A DNA stretch of 64,000 nucleotides from positions 62,001 to 126,000 of the forward strand of contig JAJDAC010000046.1 in the NCBI GenBank assembly GCA_029262065.1. Direction: 5' to 3'. Below are positions 10,008-20,836 of the stretch, piece after piece. The notes beneath the pieces are model-generated. The model made no database searches and was not told the origin of the DNA. It saw only the letters and a program-made list of their open reading frames with translations. Every line of letters starts with the position of its first letter. Position 1 is the first letter of the stretch. A program made the translations under genes and the position numbers. This stretch comes from Candidatus Krumholzibacteriota bacterium (GTDB lineage: Bacteria > Krumholzibacteriota > Krumholzibacteriia > JAJRXK01).

Positions 10008-11285
10008 TTAGAGCTTCATCTTGCGAATGCGATTGTGGAACGTGTCCACGATGTACAGGTTTCCGGCCGCGTCGAATTCGATGCCGCGCGGAAAGCGAAG
10101 GAGGGCCTCGGTGGCAGGTCCACCGTCGCCGATCTGTGAGAAGGAAGGATAGTTGCAGCTGTCGGTCGTGGTCTGGCCGCCGACCCCGGCGACCGTGGTG
10201 ATCGTGCCCGCGGTCAGGTCGATGGCGCGGATCGCGTGGTTCAGCTCGTCGGCCACGAATAGACGCCCGTTGGGTCCAAACGCCAGGTCCAGCGGCGTGT
10301 TCATGGCCGCGGCCAGCGCGTTGCCGCCGTCGCCGCCGAATCCCTGCACGCCCGAGCCGGCCACTGTGTTCACCGTGTTGGCCACGAAGTCGATTACGCG
10401 GATGCGGTGGTTCTCACCGTCCGATACGTACAGCTTGTCGTCGGGGCCGAAGATCATGCCGCCCGAGTACTGCGGATTGGTTCCCTGCTGAAAGTGGAAG
10501 AGCGCCTGATCGGGCGCGCCGCCGTCGCCGGAGAAGCCCTGCACGCCGGGCGACCCGGCCACGGTCTCGATGATTCCGTCGGGGTCGGTCAGGTAGTCGC
10601 GGATGCGGCGGATCACCTGGTTCTGCTGATCCAGGATATATAGGTGCCCGTCCGGCCCAATGCGGCTTTGCGAGGGCTGCTTCAGCAGAGCGCCGCTATG
10701 CGGCTCACCGTCGCCCGCGAAGCCGGGCGCGTCGCCGCAGGTGACCATGACCTGGTTCGTGGTCAGATCGAGCTCACGGATCTTGTGGTTGTGCCAAGCG
10801 GTGATCAGCAGATTGCCGTTGGGTAGCTCATCGAGCACGGTGGGGTGATTCAGCCGCACCAGCAGACCATCGACCGGGGCCACCCGGTCGTCCAACTCGG
10901 GATACAGGCTCATGTCCGGTCCGTCCCCCGGAAAGCCAGGGGTGCCGACGATCAGCTCCAGCGTGTTCTGAGCCGTGACCTTGCGGATACAGTGGTTGTT
11001 CCAGTCCAGAATGTAGGCGTCGCCGGCGCTGGTGAAGATCATGTCGGCGGGCTGGGAGAACCAGGAATCCAGCAGGGGATTGTTGCCCCCGTCGTACCCG
11101 GTCTTGCCCGTGCCCGCGAAGGTGTACAGGATTCCCGGCTGGCCGGCGTCGACCGCCGGCGTCAGGTCATCACAAGGATCGCCGGGTGGCGAGGTCGTGT
11201 CGTCGCTGCCGCAGCCCGCTCCGGCAAGAATCACGGCCAGCAGGGCGAACGCGGGTCCGCTCCGGCCGAGGCTTCTGAATGGCAT
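10008..11285 (-). CDS. NHL-repeat beta-propeller lipoprotein (second paralogue)
   Basis: 425-residue lipoprotein with lipobox LAGAGC at the end of its signal and then, without the Ig-like domain of its neighbour, six NHL blades (for example AYILDWNNHCIRKV and LYIVDTFHNRIRKM). Blade order and wording closely mirror the downstream paralogue (WNNH, AWHN, DQQN/DQKN blades in the same order), which indicates tandem duplication. Inserted loops rich in Gly-Asp (GFSGDGG, GFGGDGG) connect blades. ATG 11285 has AGAGGGA seven bases upstream. As the first gene of the lipoprotein operon its promoter lies in 11286-11661. Confidence 0.87.
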   Translation of the reverse strand: MPFRSLGRSGPAFALLAVILAGAGCGSDDTTSPPGDPCDDLTPAVDAGQPGILYTFAGTGKTGYDGGNNPLLDSWFSQPADMIFTSAGDAYILDWNNHCIRKVTAQNTLELIVGTPGFPGDGPDMSLYPELDDRVAPVDGLLVRLNHPTVLDELPNGNLLITAWHNHKIRELDLTTNQVMVTCGDAPGFAGDGEPHSGALLKQPSQSRIGPDGHLYILDQQNQVIRRIRDYLTDPDGIIETVAGSPGVQGFSGDGGAPDQALFHFQQGTNPQYSGGMIFGPDDKLYVSDGENHRIRVIDFVANTVNTVAGSGVQGFGGDGGNALAAAMNTPLDLAFGPNGRLFVADELNHAIRAIDLTAGTITTVAGVGGQTTTDSCNYPSFSQIGDGGPATEALLRFPRGIEFDAAGNLYIVDTFHNRIRKMKL

Positions 11286-11661
11286 GTGTTCCCTCTTGGT
11301 TGCTCGTTGCGGTCGATAGACCGTATGAGATTTCGTGGCTCAAGCTGCCCCTGGGCGAGTGGCAGCGCTTGCGAAAGCCCCGTACACGGCTAATTATACC
11401 AACTTCGGCCGCTGTTCACCATGGCCCTTCAAGGGCGAGGGGATTCCCCGGCCGAGCAATCTGGTATAGACTTGGCATTGTCCAAAACGCGCTACCTTGG
11501 GACGGCCCCGGCCTCGCCATCGGCTTCCGGAATCTGTTCTCCTGCAAGGCTTCTAGACCGCTAGGGGCTTTCTTTGGTACCTGTTACTGGTACCAGGCAG
11601 TCCCGCCCCAGAGTAGCACTCTGCAACGTCGTCTCGCGGCATACCCTGGTGCGTTCCTGTG
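11286..11661. other. divergent intergenic region before the NHL operon and the ligase gene
   Basis: 376 bases with no gene. Besides the foldable element at 11395-11468 it contains repeated GGTACC sites (11577-11582 and 11590-11595) separated by seven bases, the second inside the palindrome CTGGTACCAG, and a CTAG-ACCG-CTAG inverted repeat near 11553-11564. It should carry promoters for both directions; I could not assign -35/-10 boxes with confidence. Confidence 0.6.
11395..11468 (+). ncRNA. predicted multibranch RNA element upstream of the ligase-sufS pair
   Basis: 74 bases fold as nested helices: TATACCA (11395-11401) with TGGTATA (11462-11468), then TCGGCCG (11405-11411) with CGGCCGA (11449-11455), enclosing two hairpins, GCCCT-TCA-AGGGC (11424-11436) and GGGG-ATT-CCCC (11439-11449, sharing one base with the second helix). 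All pairings were read by eye. It is not tRNA-like because the two helices stack directly. It could be a cis-regulatory leader for the plus-strand genes starting 194 bases downstream; the complementary strand folds equally well, so strand is uncertain. Confidence 0.35.
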
Positions 11662-13131
11662 ATGTACAGCTGGCTTCTGCAAAAACTCGCCCTGCCCACG
11701 GTTTCCCGTGTCACCAGTAGTAAATTCTGGGACGACTATCAGGAAATGCTGCGGGCCGATCAGGCTCCCCTGGAGCAACAGAAAGCGCTGCAGTGGCAGC
11801 GACTGCAGTCCATGCTGGACCACGCCTACGAGACGGTACCGTTCCACCGCCAGCGCTTCGATGCGGCCGGAATCAAGCCCTCGGACATTTCTTCCTACGA
11901 AGACCTGCTGCGTATTCCGCCCAGTACCAAGATCGACATCCAGGCCAACTTCCCCGATCGGGTGGCTTCGTCGATCGGTGATCAGGACGCTTGGCGCTAT
12001 GTGTCCACTTCGGGCACGGCCAACCGGCTCATGGTCATCCAGGATTTTCGCAAGCGCGATATGGTACGTGCGTCGACGACCCGTTCGCTGGCCCTGTCCG
12101 GTGACTACGCGGTGGGCAAGACCATCGTCGAGATCCCCCCCGACATCTGTAACATCGTATGCGGCGCCGAGGGCGAAAGCCTGGACGGCGTGTTTCCGCA
12201 GATCGCATCCATGGTGAAGCATCGGGAGCTTACCGACCCCAAAGCCATCAGCTCGCTGCGCGGCCGCATCGAACGCAATTGGGTGTTTCGCAAGAAGACC
12301 TATCAGCCTTTCGGCCCGCAGGGCACCAACCTGACCGAGGAGCACATGCAGGGGTACGTCGATTCGCTGCTACGCGATCGTCCCTATCTCCTGAAGGCGT
12401 TGCCCACCTATCTATTCGAGATCGCGCGCTACGTGGAACGGAAGGGGATTGAGCCGTTGCCGGTGCAGGTGATCAAGCCCATGGGTGCGTCGATCTCGCC
12501 GTCCATGCGCGACGCGATCGAGCGCAGCTTCACCGGCCAGTTCCGCGAGGAATACGGCAGCGCCGAGTTTGGTGATATGGCGTGCGATGGTCCCGAACGG
12601 GACGGCTTGCACGTGTTCATGGATCTCTTTCTCGTTGAGGTGGTTCGCGACGGCAAGCACGCCAAAGATGGCGAGCTGGGTCGCGTGCTCATTACCGATC
12701 TCATGAACAAGGCCATGCCGCTCATCCGCTACGACATTGGCGATATCGCTCGCATGTCGCCCGCGCCCGCCAGCGCCAAGCGCCAGGGCACGCGACTTTG
12801 GGTGGAGGGTCGTGCCGACGATACCCTGGTGACGGCCGAGGGCCAGGTCTTCACCAGTGACAAGGTCATGGATTTCTTCTACAAACGGACCGATGTGGAC
12901 CAATTCCAGCTACTGGAGACGCGTCCGGGCAAGCTGGATCTGCTGATCGTCCCCAGCAACGGCTCGGTCCGTGGCGCCGGCATCGAAGACGAGCTGCGGG
13001 GATTCCTGCAGAGCGAGGTCGACGTGACGCTGTACGAAGTAAAAACCATCAAGCCCGAGGCCAGCGGTAAGTTCCGCTTCGTGCAGTCGAAGTCGCACGA
13101 CCGATTGGGCCATGAGGTCACCCATGCTTGA
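11662..13131 (+). CDS. PaaK/CapK-like adenylate-forming ligase
   Basis: 489-residue ANL-superfamily protein most like phenylacetate-CoA ligase and the CapK group, which activate a carboxylate with ATP. The phosphate-binding loop is shortened to STSGTANRLM, the aromatic motif is EEYGSAEFGD, the hinge region contains IRYDIGDIARM and WVEGRADDTLV, and the C-terminal lid ends with a lysine in KPEASGKFRF at the position of the catalytic lysine. The substrate cannot be told. ATG 11662 is chosen; a GTG three bases earlier is possible, and no strong ribosome site is visible. Its end overlaps the start of sufS by eight bases, which implies coupled expression. Confidence 0.82.
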   Translation: MYSWLLQKLALPTVSRVTSSKFWDDYQEMLRADQAPLEQQKALQWQRLQSMLDHAYETVPFHRQRFDAAGIKPSDISSYEDLLRIPPSTKIDIQANFPDRVASSIGDQDAWRYVSTSGTANRLMVIQDFRKRDMVRASTTRSLALSGDYAVGKTIVEIPPDICNIVCGAEGESLDGVFPQIASMVKHRELTDPKAISSLRGRIERNWVFRKKTYQPFGPQGTNLTEEHMQGYVDSLLRDRPYLLKALPTYLFEIARYVERKGIEPLPVQVIKPMGASISPSMRDAIERSFTGQFREEYGSAEFGDMACDGPERDGLHVFMDLFLVEVVRDGKHAKDGELGRVLITDLMNKAMPLIRYDIGDIARMSPAPASAKRQGTRLWVEGRADDTLVTAEGQVFTSDKVMDFFYKRTDVDQFQLLETRPGKLDLLIVPSNGSVRGAGIEDELRGFLQSEVDVTLYEVKTIKPEASGKFRFVQSKSHDRLGHEVTHA

Positions 13132-14305
13132 CGTCCGTGCGGACTTTCCGATTCTCGAACGACAGATCAACGGCAAGCCCATCGTCTACCTCGACAGCGC
13201 GGCCACGTCGCTCAAGCCGCGTTGCGTGATCGACGCGGTTACGAATTTCTACACCTTGCACACGGCCAACGTGCACCGAGCCGTCCATGCCCTGGCCGAA
13301 GAGGCCACCGAGCAGTTCGAAGACACGCGGCGGGTGCTGGCACGGCTCATCAACTGCGACGAAAACGAAGCGGTGTTCGTACGCGGTACCACTGAAGCCA
13401 TAAACATGGTGCATCGCTGTTATCCCGGTTTGAAGCGCAGCGTGACCACGGCCATCGAACACCATAGCAACCTGCTTCCGTGGGGATTTGGTCCCGATCG
13501 CCATATCGTGAGCGTCGACGCCGAGGGACGTATCGACATGGATGCGCTCGACGCGGTGTTGGCCGGCGGCATCGACCTGGTGGCGGTGTCGCACGTGAGC
13601 AACGCCATCGGCGCGGTTCAGCCTATCAAGGACATCATCGATCGCGCGCACGCGGCGGGCGCACTCGTGCTGGTCGACGCGGCGCAGTCGGCGCCGCACT
13701 TGCCGCTGGACGTGAAAGAGCTCGATGTGGACTTCCTGGGGTTCAGCGCGCACAAGATGTTGGGCCCCGGTGGTATTGGATGCCTGTACGCCAAGGCCGA
13801 GCACCTCGACAAGATGAGCACCTGGATGCTGGGTGGTCATGTCGTGGACCAGGTGCATCGTGAAGGCTACACGTTGCAGGAGGTCCCGCATCGTTTCGAG
13901 GCCGGTACCCCGGCGATCGAGGCGGTCATTGGTTGGGGGGCGGCCCTTCGCTACCTCGCCGGAATCGGACTCGATAACGTCCACGAGCACGATCGGGAGC
14001 TCGTGACCTACGCGCGCAATCGGCTGTCCGATATCGATCACGTCAAGCTCATTGGACCCACCGACCCCCAGCGTTCGGGTTCGGCCGTATCCTTCCAGGT
14101 CGACGGTCTCGAGGCGCATGGCGTGGCCCGCATGCTCAACAATCGAGAGAACATCATGGTACGCAGCGGTTTCCACTGCGCTCAGCCCCTGCACGAGTCA
14201 CTCGACCTGCTGCCCACCGTCCGCGCCAGCTTCTATGTATACAATACCAAGGAAGAAGTGGATTCCCTGGCGCAATGCCTGGAAGCCGTCATCCAATTCC
14301 TCTAG
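13124..14305 (+). CDS. sufS: SufS-type cysteine desulfurase
   Basis: 393-residue pyridoxal-phosphate enzyme that removes sulfur from cysteine as a persulfide. The PLP lysine is in GFSAHKMLGP, the histidine that stacks on PLP is in TTAIEHHSN, and the persulfide cysteine lies in the short, SufS-type loop RSGFHCAQP. ATG 13124 is preferred over 13112 because GAGGTC precedes it. The gene overlaps the ligase gene by eight bases. None of the usual partners (sufB, sufC, sufD, sufE or sufU) is in this window, so the sulfur acceptor is open: Fe-S assembly elsewhere, or a job tied to the ligase. Confidence 0.92.
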   Translation: MLDVRADFPILERQINGKPIVYLDSAATSLKPRCVIDAVTNFYTLHTANVHRAVHALAEEATEQFEDTRRVLARLINCDENEAVFVRGTTEAINMVHRCYPGLKRSVTTAIEHHSNLLPWGFGPDRHIVSVDAEGRIDMDALDAVLAGGIDLVAVSHVSNAIGAVQPIKDIIDRAHAAGALVLVDAAQSAPHLPLDVKELDVDFLGFSAHKMLGPGGIGCLYAKAEHLDKMSTWMLGGHVVDQVHREGYTLQEVPHRFEAGTPAIEAVIGWGAALRYLAGIGLDNVHEHDRELVTYARNRLSDIDHVKLIGPTDPQRSGSAVSFQVDGLEAHGVARMLNNRENIMVRSGFHCAQPLHESLDLLPTVRASFYVYNTKEEVDSLAQCLEAVIQFL

Positions 14306-14368
14306 TATAATCCCCGCTGGCTCGTGCTGGTCACGAGCTTGTTGCACCGCGACTCCCCGGGGGAATAG

Positions 14369-15238
14369 ATGCCAGCAACGAAAGCCCAGGTAGAGCCCGC
14401 CAATGTCCGGTTCGGCACCTCGTCGTTCTCGTCGAAAGACTGGGTAGGTCCGTTCTACCCGCAGGGGACCTCGCCTTCGGACTTTCTCCGCGTGTACGCC
14501 GAACACTTCGACACGGTGGAGATCGACGCGACCTACTACGCCATTCCGGACAAGAAGACCGTACTGGGATGGGTAGAAAAGACGCCGGAGAACTTCATCG
14601 TGTGCGCGAAGTTTCCGCGATCCATCGTGCACGGCGGCGACGGCGCGCAACCCGACGCGTCGATTCTGCTGACTGAAGATACCTACAAGGAACGCGATGA
14701 TTTCCTCGAGGTCATGTCGCACATGTCATCGCGAATTGGTCGACTGGTACTCCAGTTCCCGTACTTCAGTCGCAACGCGTTTGCGACCCACGACCCGTTC
14801 TTGAAACGTCTCGACGAGTTTCTCACCGACCTGCCGTTGGACTTTCGCTACGCCGTGGAGATCCGCAATCGGGCCTGGGTGAATCCCGACTTCGCCCATT
14901 TGTGCCGCGGCCACGACGTGGCCATGGTGCTGGTGGATCAGGCCTGGATGCCGCACGGTGATGAAATCGAAGAGAAGTTCAACTGCATCACCAGTGACAC
15001 TGCCTACGTTCGTCTGCTGGGAGATCGCAAGGAAATAGAGGCCATAACCCAATCGTGGGACGTGGAAGTGGTCGATCGTAAGGAGCGTCTGGTGCGCTGG
15101 GCCAATTTTCTGGCCCGGCAGGCTCGCAAGGGCACGCCCACGCTGTGCTACGTGAACAACCACTACGCGGGGCACGCGCCCACCACAACCCGGCGTCTGC
15201 AGAAGTTGTTCGAAGCGGCCATGAGCCGCCCCCGCTGA
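14369..15238 (+). CDS. DUF72 (YecE-like) TIM-barrel protein
   Basis: 289 residues with the DUF72 signatures: the N-terminal FGTSSFSSKDWVG..YP segment, EIDATYYAIP, CAKFPRSIVH, LVLQFPYF, YAVEIRNRAW and a C-terminal YVNNHYAGHAPTT block. The family has a TIM-like barrel resembling endonuclease IV folds, but its reaction is not established. The start ATG 14369 follows GGGGGAAT. It lies 63 bases after sufS and 10 bases before glcD, so it could be co-transcribed with either. No signal peptide or membrane segment is present; it should be cytoplasmic. Confidence 0.9.
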   Translation: MPATKAQVEPANVRFGTSSFSSKDWVGPFYPQGTSPSDFLRVYAEHFDTVEIDATYYAIPDKKTVLGWVEKTPENFIVCAKFPRSIVHGGDGAQPDASILLTEDTYKERDDFLEVMSHMSSRIGRLVLQFPYFSRNAFATHDPFLKRLDEFLTDLPLDFRYAVEIRNRAWVNPDFAHLCRGHDVAMVLVDQAWMPHGDEIEEKFNCITSDTAYVRLLGDRKEIEAITQSWDVEVVDRKERLVRWANFLARQARKGTPTLCYVNNHYAGHAPTTTRRLQKLFEAAMSRPR

Positions 15239-15248
15239 TCCACGGTCC

Positions 15249-16694
15249 ATGACGCGACCGTCAAGCCCGCTACCGGCGTCGGCGCGCCGCGATCTCGTCG
15301 CCATTCTGGGCGAGGACGCGGTCTTCGACGATGCCGTGCATCGCAAGATCTACGATTCCGATGGATATGCACTCGACGGTGTCACGCCCGATGCGGTGGT
15401 CCTACCGCGCACCGCGGTCCAGTTGCAACAGGTCGTGAAATGGTGCGTGCGCCATGGCGTTCCCTACGCGGCGCGCGGCGCCGGCACCGGATTGTCGGGG
15501 GGGTGCCTGACCCTGGGCGGCGGCATCCAGATTGGTACCAGCCGACTGCGCCGCATCGTCGAAGTCAATGAAGTCGATCGTCTGGCCGTGGTGGAACCCG
15601 GTGTGGTGAACCTTCAGTTGAGTCAGGCGGTCGCACACCTGGGTCTTCAGTTCGCACCCGATCCCTCCAGCCAGGCGGCCTGCACCATCGGCGGCAACTT
15701 CGCCGAGAACAGTGGCGGTCCCCATACGCTCAAACACGGCGTGACGCTGCCGCACATTCTGGGAGCCACCGTGGTCCAACCCGACGGCGAGTTGGCGGTT
15801 TGGGGTGGGCGAAGTCAGCCGGGTCCGGGAGTAGACCTGTTGGGCCTGGGCGTGGGCAGCGAAGGCACGTTGGGCATTGCCGTGGAGTTGACGGTACGCC
15901 TGGTGCCCACGCCCGAGAGTGTGGCCACGTTTCTGGCCGTGTTCGAGACCGAGGCCGATGCCGCGCACGCCGTCAGCGGTCTCATTGCCAGAGCCATCGT
16001 GCCCGCGGCCATGGAGCTGATTGATCGCGTCATGCTGCGTGCGGTCGAGGAAGCATTTTCATTTGGCTTCCCGCTCGACGCGGGGGCGGTACTCATCGTC
16101 GAGGTCGACGGATCCGCTCGCGATCTCAAGCACGAACGCCCGGTGGTGCGTGATGTGTTGAACGAGTTCGGTGCACGTGAGGTGCGCGAGGCCAGTTCGG
16201 CCGAAGAGCGCACTCACCTGTGGCGCGCGCGCAAACACGCCTTCGGCGCCATCGGTCGGATGTCTCCCAACTACGCCACCCAGGACGGCGTGGTGCCGCG
16301 GGGTCGCGTACCCCACATCGTGGCGTCGATCGCCCAGGCCGCAAAGCGCCACGACGTCGTCATTGGCACGGTCATCCATGCCGGCGATGGAAACATCCAT
16401 CCCTGCGTGTTGTTCGACGAACGCGACGATGCCCAGGTAGACCGCGCGCTCGCCGCGTGCAAGGACATCCTGGAACGTTGCCTGGAGCTCGACGGCAGCC
16501 CCACCGGCGAACACGGCATAGGCATGGAGAAGCGGGAGTTCATGCCGCTGTTGTTCGGCCCCGCCGATCTCGCCCTGATGACGGATCTGCGGGATGCCCT
16601 CGAACCAACGGGACTCTGCAATCCGCATAAGATCCTGCCCGGTGCATCGCCCTGCGGCGAGCTACGCGTGGCCGGGCGCCAGGTGGCGCTGTGA
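15249..16694 (+). CDS. glcD: glycolate oxidase, FAD subunit GlcD
   Basis: 481-residue flavoprotein subunit that oxidises glycolate (or a related 2-hydroxy acid such as D-lactate) to the 2-oxo acid. The FAD-binding PCMH core shows ARGAGTGLSGG, the PDPSSQAACTIGGN motif and GVGSEGTLGI; the C-terminal FAD-oxidase domain carries HAGDGNIHP, with the metal or flavin-site histidines, and the closing GEHGIGMEK and NPHKILP motifs. It is the first gene of a tight glcD-glcE-glcF set (4- and 8-base overlaps), which supports glycolate over lactate oxidase, though the substrate needs an assay. Confidence 0.94.
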   Translation: MTRPSSPLPASARRDLVAILGEDAVFDDAVHRKIYDSDGYALDGVTPDAVVLPRTAVQLQQVVKWCVRHGVPYAARGAGTGLSGGCLTLGGGIQIGTSRLRRIVEVNEVDRLAVVEPGVVNLQLSQAVAHLGLQFAPDPSSQAACTIGGNFAENSGGPHTLKHGVTLPHILGATVVQPDGELAVWGGRSQPGPGVDLLGLGVGSEGTLGIAVELTVRLVPTPESVATFLAVFETEADAAHAVSGLIARAIVPAAMELIDRVMLRAVEEAFSFGFPLDAGAVLIVEVDGSARDLKHERPVVRDVLNEFGAREVREASSAEERTHLWRARKHAFGAIGRMSPNYATQDGVVPRGRVPHIVASIAQAAKRHDVVIGTVIHAGDGNIHPCVLFDERDDAQVDRALAACKDILERCLELDGSPTGEHGIGMEKREFMPLLFGPADLALMTDLRDALEPTGLCNPHKILPGASPCGELRVAGRQVAL

Positions 16695-17914
16695 CGATCG
16701 ACGCGCGCGAAGGGTTGGTGGCCCATCTGGGGCTGGCGGCGGTAGGTGAACGCGTGGTGCGCCCGAAGCATCGCGAAAGCTCACGACTCTGCGTCGAGAC
16801 CTTCGTCGAAACCCGCACGCCCTGGTGGCCCCGTGGCGGCGGCGGTGGCGACAAAGAGGGCGATCGCACGGCCACGAAGCCGCTTGCGCCCAGTGATCCC
16901 GATCGTTGGTGTCTGGACATGCGCGGTTTGGACTCGATACTGGATTACTGGCCCGATGACCTGGTGTGCCGCGTGGGTGCGGGCATCACGTTCGACAACC
17001 TGCAGACCACACTCGCCAGGCGTGGCTTGCGGTTGCGTGGTTCGAGCCTGCGACCGAGAGACACCACGCTCGGCGGAGCGTACGCGCGTGGTGACGCGGG
17101 TTTGCGTGGCGCACCCGGCGATAGCCTGCGCGATCAGGTACTGGGCCTGGTGGCCGTGGCGGGCGGCGGTGAGGTGGTCAAGGCGGGCGCGCGCGTCGTC
17201 AAGAATGTGGCCGGCTACGATCTGGCTCGGCTGTTCCACGGATCCCACGGTGCATTCGGCGTGGTGCTCGACTTCGTGTTGCGTTTGGAGGCAATTCCCG
17301 GCGCCAGCCACTGCGTGGCGTTACCGACCAACTTCGACGCGGCGCTGGACTTGTTGTCGAAGTGGCGGCGTCCGGCGCGGTCGTTTGACCCCGCGGTGCA
17401 ATTGTGGCTGAACGCCACGGCCAGCCGCGCCTTGGGAGGACCCGAGCAGGGCGCCTTGTTTCTGATGGCCGAGGGCTGGCCTGAGTCGATCGACGCCTGG
17501 CGCGAGGCAACGGCGCGGGCCCAGGGCGTTACGCTGGCCAATGAGGCGGCGCAGGCCTGGAACGCCGTGCGTGATCTGGACGCCAATCACGCGCTCTGGA
17601 TCCAGCTTCCCGCCAGCCGCCTCGTGCGTTGGTGGGGCGACAACCAGGGTTGGATATCGGGACGTGGTTCGCAGCCGAACCTGGTTGCCGACCTGCTCGC
17701 TGGTTCGGCGCGGCTTTGGTCGACGCCAAGCCCGTTCGATGGCGAACTTGTGGCCGAGGTGGCGCGAACCGTGCGCGAAGCGGGAGGGTGGGTTTGGTCG
17801 CCCACCGCGGCTTCGAGTCCTTCGCCCGCATTGATTCGGCTGAAGCGGGCGCTTGACCCACATGGCCTGTTGCCACCAATCCCCACGCCCGTGTTGGGGC
17901 CGACCGATGGTTGA
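16691..17914 (+). CDS. glcE: glycolate oxidase, FAD-binding subunit GlcE
   Basis: 407-residue second flavoprotein subunit. It starts at GTG 16691 overlapping the glcD stop (GTGA). The PCMH fold is recognised from PWWPRGGGGG (first FAD loop, widened), CRVGAGITFDNLQ, the RDTTLGGAYARG segment and VKNVAGYDLARLFHGSHGAFG, which is the hallmark of GlcE. The glycine-rich loop has an insert (GDKEGDRTATKP) compared with the usual short turn. GlcE associates with GlcD and the iron-sulfur subunit GlcF at the membrane. The final eight bases overlap glcF. Confidence 0.92.
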   Translation: MTIDAREGLVAHLGLAAVGERVVRPKHRESSRLCVETFVETRTPWWPRGGGGGDKEGDRTATKPLAPSDPDRWCLDMRGLDSILDYWPDDLVCRVGAGITFDNLQTTLARRGLRLRGSSLRPRDTTLGGAYARGDAGLRGAPGDSLRDQVLGLVAVAGGGEVVKAGARVVKNVAGYDLARLFHGSHGAFGVVLDFVLRLEAIPGASHCVALPTNFDAALDLLSKWRRPARSFDPAVQLWLNATASRALGGPEQGALFLMAEGWPESIDAWREATARAQGVTLANEAAQAWNAVRDLDANHALWIQLPASRLVRWWGDNQGWISGRGSQPNLVADLLAGSARLWSTPSPFDGELVAEVARTVREAGGWVWSPTAASSPSPALIRLKRALDPHGLLPPIPTPVLGPTDG

Positions 17915-19163
17915 ACGACTGAATGCCCAGACGATTTCGTCCGACGCGCTCGACGCGCAGCTTCGGGCCTGTGTGCACTGTGGGCTGTGTTTGAACTCCT
18001 GTCCTACGTACCTGTTGACCGGTGACGAGGTGCACGGTCCGCGTGGACGACTCGTGCTGATGGCCAACGTGGTGGGGAAGGACGCCGCGCTGGACGCCGG
18101 TGATTTTTCCCGTGAGTCGATCGATGCGTGTCTGGGGTGTCGCAACTGCGAGACGGTGTGTCCGTCGGGAGTGTCCTACGGACACCTGCTGGAAGAAACC
18201 CGTGCCCGCCTGGGGCCGGCGCCCGGTCAGACGAATGCGTTGTTGGCGTGGGTCCTGGACCATGTATTGGCTCACCCCCGGCGCTTGGCGCTGGCTGCGA
18301 TGCTGGGTGGATTCACCCGTCGTTGGGCGGCGGGACTGGTACCCGCCCGTTGGCGGTCGATGTTGCAGGCGTTGCCGGCTCGGCCCGCCACGTGGCCAAG
18401 GCGTCACGGCCTGGCTGCGAGCGGCGATCCATCCCACGATCAGGCGCTCTTGTTGGGGTGCGCGCAATGGGTCTACACACCCGAGGTTGCCAGGGCCACC
18501 GCCGCTCTTGTGACGGCGGCCGGCGGGATCCCCTACGCTCCCACGTCGCAGGGTTGTTGCGGGGCTCTGAGTCACCACAACGGATCGGTGTCGGTTGCCC
18601 GCGAACGCGCCGCCGACACCGTGGACGCCTTCGCCCAGGCCGGCTGTGTGGTGGTTCCCAGCGCCGGGTGCTCAGCGCACCTGAAGACGGCGGTGCCCGA
18701 ACTGCTGGCCAATGACCCCGCGCGTTCGGCCGAAGCACAACGGCTGGCCGGGGTCACCGCCGACGTGGTCGAGTGGTTGCATGGACGGCGCGACCGCCTT
18801 CGTTTTCGGGTCGGCGACCCCGTGCGGGTGCTCTACCATCCGCCGTGCCACCACTCGCACGCCCAGGGCATCCGCAACGAGCCCCTGGAATTGCTGGCCA
18901 TGGTCCCCGGCGTCACGGTCGTCCAGGCCGACCGTCCCGAGCTTTGCTGCGGCTCGGCCGGCAGCTATAGCCTGCAGCGTCCCCGGGAAGCTCGGGCCAT
19001 CCGCGACGCCAAGCTGGAGTCGATGGAACAGACCCGCTTCGACCTGCTGGTGACCGCCAATCCCGGTTGTGAGCTATTTCTTCACCAGGGACTGAGGGAG
19101 CAGGGCGTACAGGTGCCGGTAATGCACCTGGTCACATTCCTGGCGGATCGACTGGATAGTTAA
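17907..19163 (+). CDS. glcF: glycolate oxidase, iron-sulfur subunit GlcF
   Basis: 418 residues from ATG 17907. Two ferredoxin-type clusters near the N-terminus (CVHCGLCLNSCP and CLGCRNCETVCP) bind 4Fe-4S centres that pass electrons from the flavin subunits to the quinone pool. Two CCG domains follow, with QGCCGAL and ELCCGSAGSYS, as in heterodisulfide-reductase-like subunits. The stop TAA at 19161-19163 lies within a likely promoter for the next gene. Complete and without obvious defects. Confidence 0.94.
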   Translation: MVERLNAQTISSDALDAQLRACVHCGLCLNSCPTYLLTGDEVHGPRGRLVLMANVVGKDAALDAGDFSRESIDACLGCRNCETVCPSGVSYGHLLEETRARLGPAPGQTNALLAWVLDHVLAHPRRLALAAMLGGFTRRWAAGLVPARWRSMLQALPARPATWPRRHGLAASGDPSHDQALLLGCAQWVYTPEVARATAALVTAAGGIPYAPTSQGCCGALSHHNGSVSVARERAADTVDAFAQAGCVVVPSAGCSAHLKTAVPELLANDPARSAEAQRLAGVTADVVEWLHGRRDRLRFRVGDPVRVLYHPPCHHSHAQGIRNEPLELLAMVPGVTVVQADRPELCCGSAGSYSLQRPREARAIRDAKLESMEQTRFDLLVTANPGCELFLHQGLREQGVQVPVMHLVTFLADRLDS

Positions 19164-19189
19164 CGCTATTAAAATCAATGGCTTATAAT
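19160..19189 (+). promoter_or_regulatory. sigma-70-like promoter candidate for the lysine aminotransferase
   Basis: TTAACG (19160-19165), an 18-base spacer and a perfect TATAAT (19184-19189) in a local AT-rich patch, overlapping the glcF stop. It would give a 5' leader of about 300 bases before the ATG at 19496. The -35 box matches consensus at four of six positions. Confidence 0.4.
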
Positions 19190-19495
19190 CGAACCTGGCC
19201 GGCCGTGAGGGCCGTGGGTTTTCGCCCTCCCGTGCCTGCGATAGAATTGACGTGGGCGGTCGCCTTCGCGCGGCGGTCCAAAGGTCGGTGCGGGGTATGT
19301 CCGCAGGTATACCTCGTATCTCCGCGAACTAGCGGGTTCTGGCGGGTGGAGGCACGTTGAGTCGCAGTGCCAATGCTTCGCTGGCCCCGTCCCGCATCGA
19401 CGCTTAAACTATCCAGCCAGTTGCTCTCCACCGGTCGTCGATCATTCCACCGATTGTCCCTGCCGGTCTTGTCTCAAACCCTCCGGGAGGGGCCG
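19164..19495 (+). other. 332-base leader/intergenic region before lat
   Basis: No coding frame with protein character. It contains a stable hairpin, GGGGTAT (19292-19298) with ATACCTC (19309-19315) around a ten-base loop, and several smaller GC inverted repeats. I found no match to the lysine riboswitch signatures I know, nor to 6S, SRP, RNase P or tmRNA landmarks. Confidence 0.5.
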
Positions 19496-20836
19496 ATGGC
19501 GGACGCCACCAAGAAACTGAAGCTGCACAAGGTTGCGACCGACCAGGTCCATTCGATCATCGGCCGTTCGATGCTCAAGGACGGCTTCCCGTTCGTAGTG
19601 GATCTGGACAAGAGCGAGGGCTCCTACCTGGTGGACAAGGTCACCGGCAAGCGCACCCTCGACTTCTTCAACTACTTCGCTACGCAGCCGCTAGGGCACA
19701 ATCATCCGGCGATGACCGATCCGGAGTTCATGGAGCACATTGGTCGGGTGGCCATCACCAACCCGAGCAACAGCGATTTCTACACCGAGGACATGGCGGC
19801 CTTCGTCGACATGCTTCACCAGACGGCGCAGCCCAAGAGTCTGCCCCATCTGTTCATGGTGTCCGGCGGTGCGTTGGCCGTGGAGAACGCGATGAAGACC
19901 GCGTTCGACTGGAAGTTCCAGAAGCGCGCCGCGCGCGGCCTGCCCGACGACGAAGACCTGAGCATACTGCACTTCCGCGAGGCGTTTCATGGACGCACGG
20001 GATACACCATGAGCCTCACGAACACCGAAGCCAACAAGGTCCGTTGGTTTCCCAAGTTCGATTGGCCGCGGGTGAGCAATCCCAAGATCGTATTTCCGCT
20101 CGAGGACAACCTGGCCCAGGTGGAAGAAGCGGAAGAGCGCTCACTGGCCGAGATCCGGTCGGTGTTCGAGCACGCGGGTGACCGCGTGGCCGGAGTCATC
20201 GTGGAGCCTATCCAAGGTGAAGGCGGCGACAATCACTTCCGTTCTTCCTACATGCACGCGCTGCGCGAGATCACTCGCGACAACGAGGCACTGCTGATCG
20301 TGGACGAGGTGCAGACGGGCGTGGGCACCACCGGAACCTGGTGGGCCCACGAGCATCACGGCATCAAGCCGGACGTTCTGTGTTTCGGCAAGAAGATGCA
20401 GGTGTGTGGAATCCTGGCGGGGCCGCGGGTCGACGAAGTGGATTCGGTGTTCTCGGTTTCCAGCCGCATCAACTCCACGTGGGGGGGCAGCCTGGTCGAC
20501 ATGGTTCGCGCCACGCGCTACCTGCAGGTCATCGAGGCCGAGGGCCTGGTACAGAACGCGGCCGAACGCGGCGAACAGTTCCTGGTTCGACTCTGGGAAT
20601 TGGCCGGTGTGCACCCGCACCTGGTGTCGAACGTGCGAGGCAAGGGCCTGTTCGTGGCGTTCACGTTGCCCACGCGCGAACAACGAGACCGGTTGCTCGA
20701 CGTGAGTCGTGAGCACGGGATGATGGCGTTGGCGTCGGGACCCAACTCGGTGCGTTTTCGTCCGCCGCTTACCGTGTCCAGCGCCGAGATCGAGCAGGCC
20801 GTCGAGATTCTCGACACGGCCCTGGCCCTACTCTAG
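19496..20836 (+). CDS. lat: L-lysine 6-transaminase
   Basis: 446-residue class III PLP aminotransferase that moves the epsilon-amino group of lysine to 2-oxoglutarate, giving 2-aminoadipate semialdehyde. Lat-specific wording is clear: KVATDQVHSIIGRSML near the start, FFNYFATQPLGHNHP, FREAFHGRTGYTMSLTNT, the VDEVQTGVGTTG motif and the PLP lysine region CFGKKMQVCGI. ATG 19496 follows GGGAGGGG. The next step of lysine breakdown (semialdehyde dehydrogenase) is not in the window. Its stop TAG shares the CTAG with the stop of the convergent potassium-channel gene. Confidence 0.92.
   Translation: MADATKKLKLHKVATDQVHSIIGRSMLKDGFPFVVDLDKSEGSYLVDKVTGKRTLDFFNYFATQPLGHNHPAMTDPEFMEHIGRVAITNPSNSDFYTEDMAAFVDMLHQTAQPKSLPHLFMVSGGALAVENAMKTAFDWKFQKRAARGLPDDEDLSILHFREAFHGRTGYTMSLTNTEANKVRWFPKFDWPRVSNPKIVFPLEDNLAQVEEAEERSLAEIRSVFEHAGDRVAGVIVEPIQGEGGDNHFRSSYMHALREITRDNEALLIVDEVQTGVGTTGTWWAHEHHGIKPDVLCFGKKMQVCGILAGPRVDEVDSVFSVSSRINSTWGGSLVDMVRATRYLQVIEAEGLVQNAAERGEQFLVRLWELAGVHPHLVSNVRGKGLFVAFTLPTREQRDRLLDVSREHGMMALASGPNSVRFRPPLTVSSAEIEQAVEILDTALALL

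Follow-up and report, generated by a model that had tools for sequence, protein, structure and literature searches.

A PaaK-like ligase coupled to a second, divergent SufS: a conserved gene pair with possible thio-acid chemistry

A PaaK-like ligase gene and a SufS-like gene that overlap in a Candidatus Krumholzibacteriota bacterium form a real, conserved module. All five members found of the ligase's clade, which consists of this genome and four genomes of the phylum of Phycisphaera, carry the SufS-like gene directly downstream on the same strand, either overlapping or 2 bases apart. We propose, with a probability of roughly 0.4, that the pair is a closely coupled module dedicated to thiolation, in which an acyl-adenylate would be made and then sulfurated to a thiocarboxylate, perhaps through a CxxxC cysteine pair of the ligase. 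The features of the pair are listed in Table 1, with positions counted in the window, i.e., the whole stretch of 64,000 nucleotides that was analyzed (contig JAJDAC010000046.1, positions 62,001 to 126,000).

Table 1. Features of the ligase/SufS pair, in window coordinates.
Feature	Position	Strand	Remarks
PaaK-like (ANL superfamily) adenylate-forming ligase, 490 aa	11659..13131	+	GTG start; alternative ATG 11662
P-loop-like motif S116-R123 (STSGTANR)	12004..12027	+	12-ligase alignment
Clade-specific insert, about residues 160-205	12136..12273	+	alignments; low model confidence
C164-x-x-x-C168 (codons 12148-12150 and 12160-12162)	12148..12162	+	invariant in 5/5 paired ligases; putative persulfide acceptor and resolving cysteine
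K471, C-terminal lysine of the ANL fold (SGK)	13069..13071	+	invariant in alignments
GAGG, possible ribosome-binding site for SufS start 13124	13114..13117	+	by eye
SufS-like cysteine desulfurase, 393 aa	13124..14305	+	8-base overlap with ligase
K211, presumed PLP lysine of SufS-like enzyme	13754..13756	+	kept in 5/5 paired SufS
C352, presumed catalytic (persulfide) cysteine of SufS-like enzyme	14177..14179	+	kept in 5/5 paired SufS

The preliminary description of this DNA had reported an overlap of eight bases between the two genes and no SUF assembly gene in the window, and both observations hold, the latter as regards SufB and SufD. The overlap depends on the SufS start at ATG 13124, which was judged by eye to be better than the first ATG of the open reading frame at 13112. 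The genome (5.77 Mb in 59 contigs, 95.6% complete) has a complete sufB-C-D-S-U-T operon on contig 2, each product of which scored above the cut-off of a TIGR model (590.1 bits for its SufS, against the TIGR01979 cut-off of 475.1). The only two matches of the genome to the SufB/SufD core are on that contig, none is in the window, and the six scanned neighbors of the pair belong to other families. Because this operon supplies a SufS of its own, the paired SufS, which is 43% identical to the operon's, is a second, divergent SufS coupled to the ligase. A separate suf operon was also read by eye in G662, another genome of the clade.

The other four clade members were found by the ligase alone, and each then showed SufS directly downstream; their ligases are 53, 35, 32, and 30% identical to the window's. 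A pattern scan of one genome per species, covering 84,980 species, gave one relative, Phycisphaera sp. MAG RI_382 (G387, locus L048), whose ligase is 53% identical over the full length and whose SufS, 65% identical to the window's, begins 2 bases past the stop codon of the ligase gene. Among 397 genomes of the class of RI_382, a profile search recovered G662 and RI_382 itself (2/397); among 392 genomes of the phylum of RI_382, another recovered G897, G925, and again RI_382 (3/392). The two genes overlap by 14 bases in G662, 20 in G925, and 4 in G897, depending on the start codons chosen; the G925 and G897 pairs sit on contigs of about 4 kb. No further clade member was found in 114 genomes of the order of G662, where nine genomes matched at E 1e-40 and the best score after G662 was 158 bits. 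With the single ligase protein at E ≤ 1e-33, a cut that could miss clade members as distant as 30% identity, the ligase was absent from the 79 other genomes of the window's phylum (80 searched) and from 386 of the 387 genomes of a broader draw. A three-row profile matched 35 genomes at E 1e-40 in a draw of 387 genomes that includes those 79, and nothing among them was clade-like (best after the window, 221 bits), while G897 and G925, which were outside that profile, scored 376 and 311 bits. Some of these genome searches scored at most four candidates per genome. The pair is therefore conserved throughout the clade as found, and it recurs in the phylum of Phycisphaera rather than in close relatives of the window genome.

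SufS as a direct neighbor was found for none of 62 other PaaK-like ligases (54 with at least 566 bases downstream and 8 with less than 400, where a SufS may have been missed). These controls, 53 cellular and 9 viral with a few near-copies, remained from 71 ligase entries after setting aside nine, namely the five clade members and four second copies that were dropped; they were drawn by searches with the clade's own sequences or relatives and thus are not a random sample. A SufS-like gene does occur in the stretch of two of them, 1.1 kb away after a PP-loop gene in G304 and 2.7 kb away from a second ligase in the G662 cluster. In a tree of the five paired ligases and 34 of the 62 others, the paired ligases formed one clade with support of 100/99.5. 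Among 25 SufS-like proteins placed in a second tree, the five paired SufS likewise grouped as one clade (90/88, not starred); the suf-operon SufS of the window genome and of G662 fell outside it, in a starred group of 16 (95/95). For G897, odd composition was flagged by the tree program in both trees, and its SufS was flagged for a long branch as well.

The preliminary description had allowed that the pairing could be a chance of genome packing, and had staked its proposal on this not being the sole sufS of the genome and on the pair recurring elsewhere. Because the operon on contig 2 contains a sufS besides the paired one, and the pair recurs in 5/5 clade members, the coupling of ligase and SufS is well supported and chance packing is unlikely. 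SufS is commonly an Fe-S enzyme (PMC8300815), which could suggest a spare copy for Fe-S cluster assembly or tRNA thiolation that lies beside the ligase by chance; we regard this as very improbable, as it is opposed by the operon on contig 2, the grouping of the paired SufS in the tree, and the constant pairing. On these grounds and on the absence of the arrangement from the 62 controls, both a chance neighborhood and a spare Fe-S SufS were rejected.

The window ligase matched no Pfam family at E 0.001, and PaaK-type NCBIfam models matched it far under their cut-offs; for TIGR02155 (PaaK phenylacetate-CoA ligase), it scored 127.5 bits against a cut-off of 646.3. A structure model built from 26 rows reached a mean pLDDT of 77.7 and a pTM of 0.80 (mean pLDDT 37.5 from two sequences alone), and Foldseek ranked PaaK1 first for it (E 2e-29, TM 0.62/0.70). 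Seven residues, G119, E303, R357, D362, G384, R385, and K471, are invariant across an alignment of 12 ligases; we take these to be the adenylation residues, with K471 presumably the catalytic C-terminal lysine of the ANL fold. Judging from the modeled fold and these residues, the window ligase is a member of the ANL superfamily with a predicted PaaK-like fold. Like the G925 ligase, it is without a CxC pair (columns 371/373) and a column-311 cysteine, which are near-invariant among the 12 aligned ligases. It is 24-25% identical to two PaaK-type plasmid proteins; 172 plasmid records matched it, all below 60% identity, and the 20 matches listed were at 25-29%. PaaK-like ligases with a C-terminal fusion to aspartate decarboxylase (PanD, PF02261) were seen in the window's class (L033:868-2649 and L041:916-2649), in which further frames of about this length occur.

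What sets the paired ligases apart is their insert, which takes the position of a segment with Trp-Gly in most other PaaK-like ligases (42 of the 62) and YGYGLF in PaaK; two PaaK-type proteins carry YGYGLF or FSYGLW there. In all five paired ligases this segment, which follows the strand near residue 155, reads P-[PA]-[DN]-x-C-[NY]-x-x-C-G, where C164, C168, and G169 are invariant. None of the 62 other ligases has a CxxxC in this segment, one row (L090) being only partly readable; the string CxxxCG occurs elsewhere in two of them, at the N-terminus of L019 and in a helix upstream of the segment in L041, and neither aligns with C164/C168. The motif was first noted on three clade members and held in both members found later, G897 and G925, which are only a partly independent test because the profile that found them included the CxxxC columns. 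Motif A4 is described as an aromatic residue of the acyl-binding pocket (PMC8388817), and the insert segment probably corresponds to this motif as read from the alignment. The cysteine pair would then lie beside the acyl pocket, in a loop modeled at low confidence (pLDDT below 50 for residues 164-205). The pair could instead bind a metal or be structural.

The window pair is flanked by an NHL-repeat gene on the opposite strand and by a DUF72 gene; the latter (14369-15238), 63 bases past the SufS stop, was not recognized beside the RI_382 or G662 pairs. Farther downstream (15249-20836) are two FAD-linked oxidase genes, a CCG/4Fe-4S gene, and a class III aminotransferase gene, of which the oxidase pair and the CCG/4Fe-4S gene presumably make up a glycolate-oxidase-like set. 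In RI_382, a mannose-6-phosphate isomerase gene is upstream of the pair and a GNAT gene downstream, and in G925 a FemAB/GNAT-like gene lies near the pair on the opposite strand. The G662 pair (L058:1-17930) is within a polysaccharide cluster of glycosyltransferases, an epimerase, Wzy_C, a sulfotransferase, and a CysN/CysC protein, with cysD read by eye; this cluster also holds a second CapK-type ligase. The flanks thus differ among the three loci read with long flanks (window, RI_382, and G662), no third gene common to the loci read was recognized, and neither was a substrate-pathway gene beside the pair outside G662 (the G925 and G897 contigs being about 4 kb).

The location of the G662 pair, and the occurrence in similar clusters of CapK-type ligases in stretches that lack an annotated SufS, would agree with a mobile gene couple whose members act separately, the ligase being an unrelated enzyme that activates acids in the synthesis of surface polysaccharides. 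We find this improbable, since SufS stays adjacent (overlapping or 2 bases away) in 5/5, even where ligase identity drops to 30% and the flanks differ, and the clade-specific CxxxC occurs in the same paired ligases. A phage or defense origin of the pair has no support either, as the viral-contig scans (A1, A3) were empty and PADLOC gave no match for the ligase. A search of phage records gave seven with relatives at 23-30% identity, and environmental viral contigs carry CapK-type ligase genes (L129, L132, and L133); these three are 829-codon frames whose second half was not recognized.

The second protein of the pair matched Pfam Aminotran_5 at 414 bits. It has the PLP lysine and catalytic cysteine of the type II cysteine desulfurases (SufS/CsdA group), roles that we assign to K211 and C352, respectively, and the motif VRSG-x-x-C-A around the cysteine is kept in 5/5 paired SufS, where G925 has LC in place of HC. 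Its score of 462.5 bits against TIGR01979 is just under the SufS cut-off of 475.1, and that of the only other paired SufS scored is 412.8 bits, so both fall short of this model. In the paired SufS, both the loop before EHH[SA]N and the part that comes after the next PW are shortened, and one extra residue is inserted near the catalytic cysteine; the G304 and G164 SufS have this extra residue too. In PADLOC, the window SufS reached 177.8 bits with SspA and 172.5 bits with DndA, compared with 462.5 bits for the SufS model, and it is not assigned to the defense desulfurases.

UstD is a PLP enzyme that forms carbon-carbon bonds. The sub-threshold scores, the shortened loops, and the appearance of UstD as a distant match in the PDB list would fit the SufS-like protein being another PLP enzyme of this kind, acting on the ligase product, but the conserved catalytic cysteine argues against it, and among solved chains cysteine desulfurases come closest (best E 3.7e-101), with UstD at only 2.2e-26. 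We consider such a role quite unlikely.

Judging from the residues shown, the dedicated thiolation module could work as follows. The ligase would bind ATP and a carboxylic acid to make an acyl-adenylate, while the SufS-like enzyme would move the sulfur of L-cysteine to a persulfide on C352. This sulfur may pass to one cysteine of C164-x-x-x-C168 and thence onto the acyl-adenylate, with the second cysteine releasing it through disulfide formation. MnmA and ThiI are described as working in this way, with an adenylate, a cysteine that carries the persulfide, and a further cysteine (PMC5372739). The product would be a thiocarboxylate, and making it would require neither CoA nor a sulfur-carrier protein nor a SufE/SufU partner. 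According to PMC8300815, SufS and other type II desulfurases have specific acceptor proteins as partners and are strongly stimulated by them, and the ligase could itself be an acceptor that stimulates the SufS-like enzyme.

Alternatively, the route might have two steps, like that to thioplatensimycin: the ligase would make an acyl-CoA thioester, and the SufS sulfur, together with other factors, would later replace the CoA. CoA ligase activity is known for PaaK itself (PMC4498308), and PtmA3, an acyl-CoA synthetase, gives thiocarboxylates with PtmU4 through acyl-CoA (PMC6006322). However, no CoA-transferase and no PtmU4 homolog was found among the pair and the six scanned window neighbors (10008-20836), none was seen by eye in the RI_382 and G662 loci, and the route leaves the CxxxC pair unexplained; we judge it unlikely. 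Thio-acid synthesis is the leading reading, unproven as it is. Of the possible thio-acid chemistry raised in the preliminary description, the coupling has become well supported, while the chemistry is the best-supported guess from an activating enzyme, a desulfurase, and an invariant cysteine pair.

The ligases nearest to the paired clade in the tree (89/69) are those of G265, G304, and G164. In G304 (L118:6995-10804), a CapK-type ligase gene is followed by a gene for a PP-loop protein (SGGTDS, QueC-like, with a QueC match just above the cut-off) and then by the SufS-like gene. In G164 (L119:3122-5439), a CapK-type ligase gene is likewise followed by a PP-loop gene (SGGTDS, QueC-like), but the SufS-like gene of this genome is found on a different contig, next to a glycosyltransferase-like gene; G265 had no SufS match at E 1e-60. 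The gene order of G304 and G164 is distinct from that of the pair, though compatible with sulfur chemistry, and may represent a sister thiolation operon. We tentatively suggest that the paired clade may represent a new class of thiocarboxylate synthetase, an ANL ligase with its own persulfide-relay cysteine pair beside the acyl pocket that is fed directly by a dedicated SufS and converts a free acid to a thioacid without CoA or a sulfur carrier. The ligase and PP-loop protein of G304 and G164, joined in G304 by SufS, would be a related second design.

In searches of the open-licence literature, we found no paper on a ligase and SufS combination and no description of an ANL ligase in a sulfur-transferase role. 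The window ligase resembles PaaK phenylacetate-CoA ligases and the CapK-type ligases of polysaccharide clusters in fold (PaaK1) and adenylation residues, but differs from them by the CxxxC insert at the acyl-pocket segment and the coupling to SufS. The paired SufS shares fold family and catalytic residues with the SufS of SUF operons, from which it differs in having no SufB/SufD alongside, in scoring below the SufS cut-off, and in having two loops shortened and a single residue added close to the catalytic cysteine. With MnmA and ThiI, the proposed mechanism would have in common an ATP-made adenylate, a desulfurase persulfide, and a second, releasing cysteine (PMC5372739), whereas those are PP-loop enzymes acting on tRNA and the window enzyme is an ANL ligase that presumably acts on a carboxylate. 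In natural-product synthesis, a desulfurase with an ATP-dependent partner, as proposed for the window pair, is also encoded by the 6-thioguanine genes tgsA/tgsB (TgsA predicted to be SufS-like, with a predicted ATP-dependent sulfur transferase; PMC7994395) and was described for the thiotetronate genes stuS/stuJ (TlmS/TlmJ; PMC5518548), although the partner there is TtuA-like or thiouridylase-like, not an ANL ligase. PtmA3 of the PtmA3/PtmU4 system is an acid-activating acyl-CoA synthetase en route to a thiocarboxylate, like the window ligase as proposed, but that route (PMC6006322) needs CoA intermediates, a type III CoA-transferase, and sulfur-carrier proteins, which the proposed window route would not. 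If the proposal is true, a self-contained two-gene thioacid synthetase would extend a very large enzyme superfamily to a new function and could offer a simple means of preparing thioacids, and a ligase with CxxxC next to a SufS gene would be a search handle for sulfur compounds in Planctomycetota and other uncultured bacteria.
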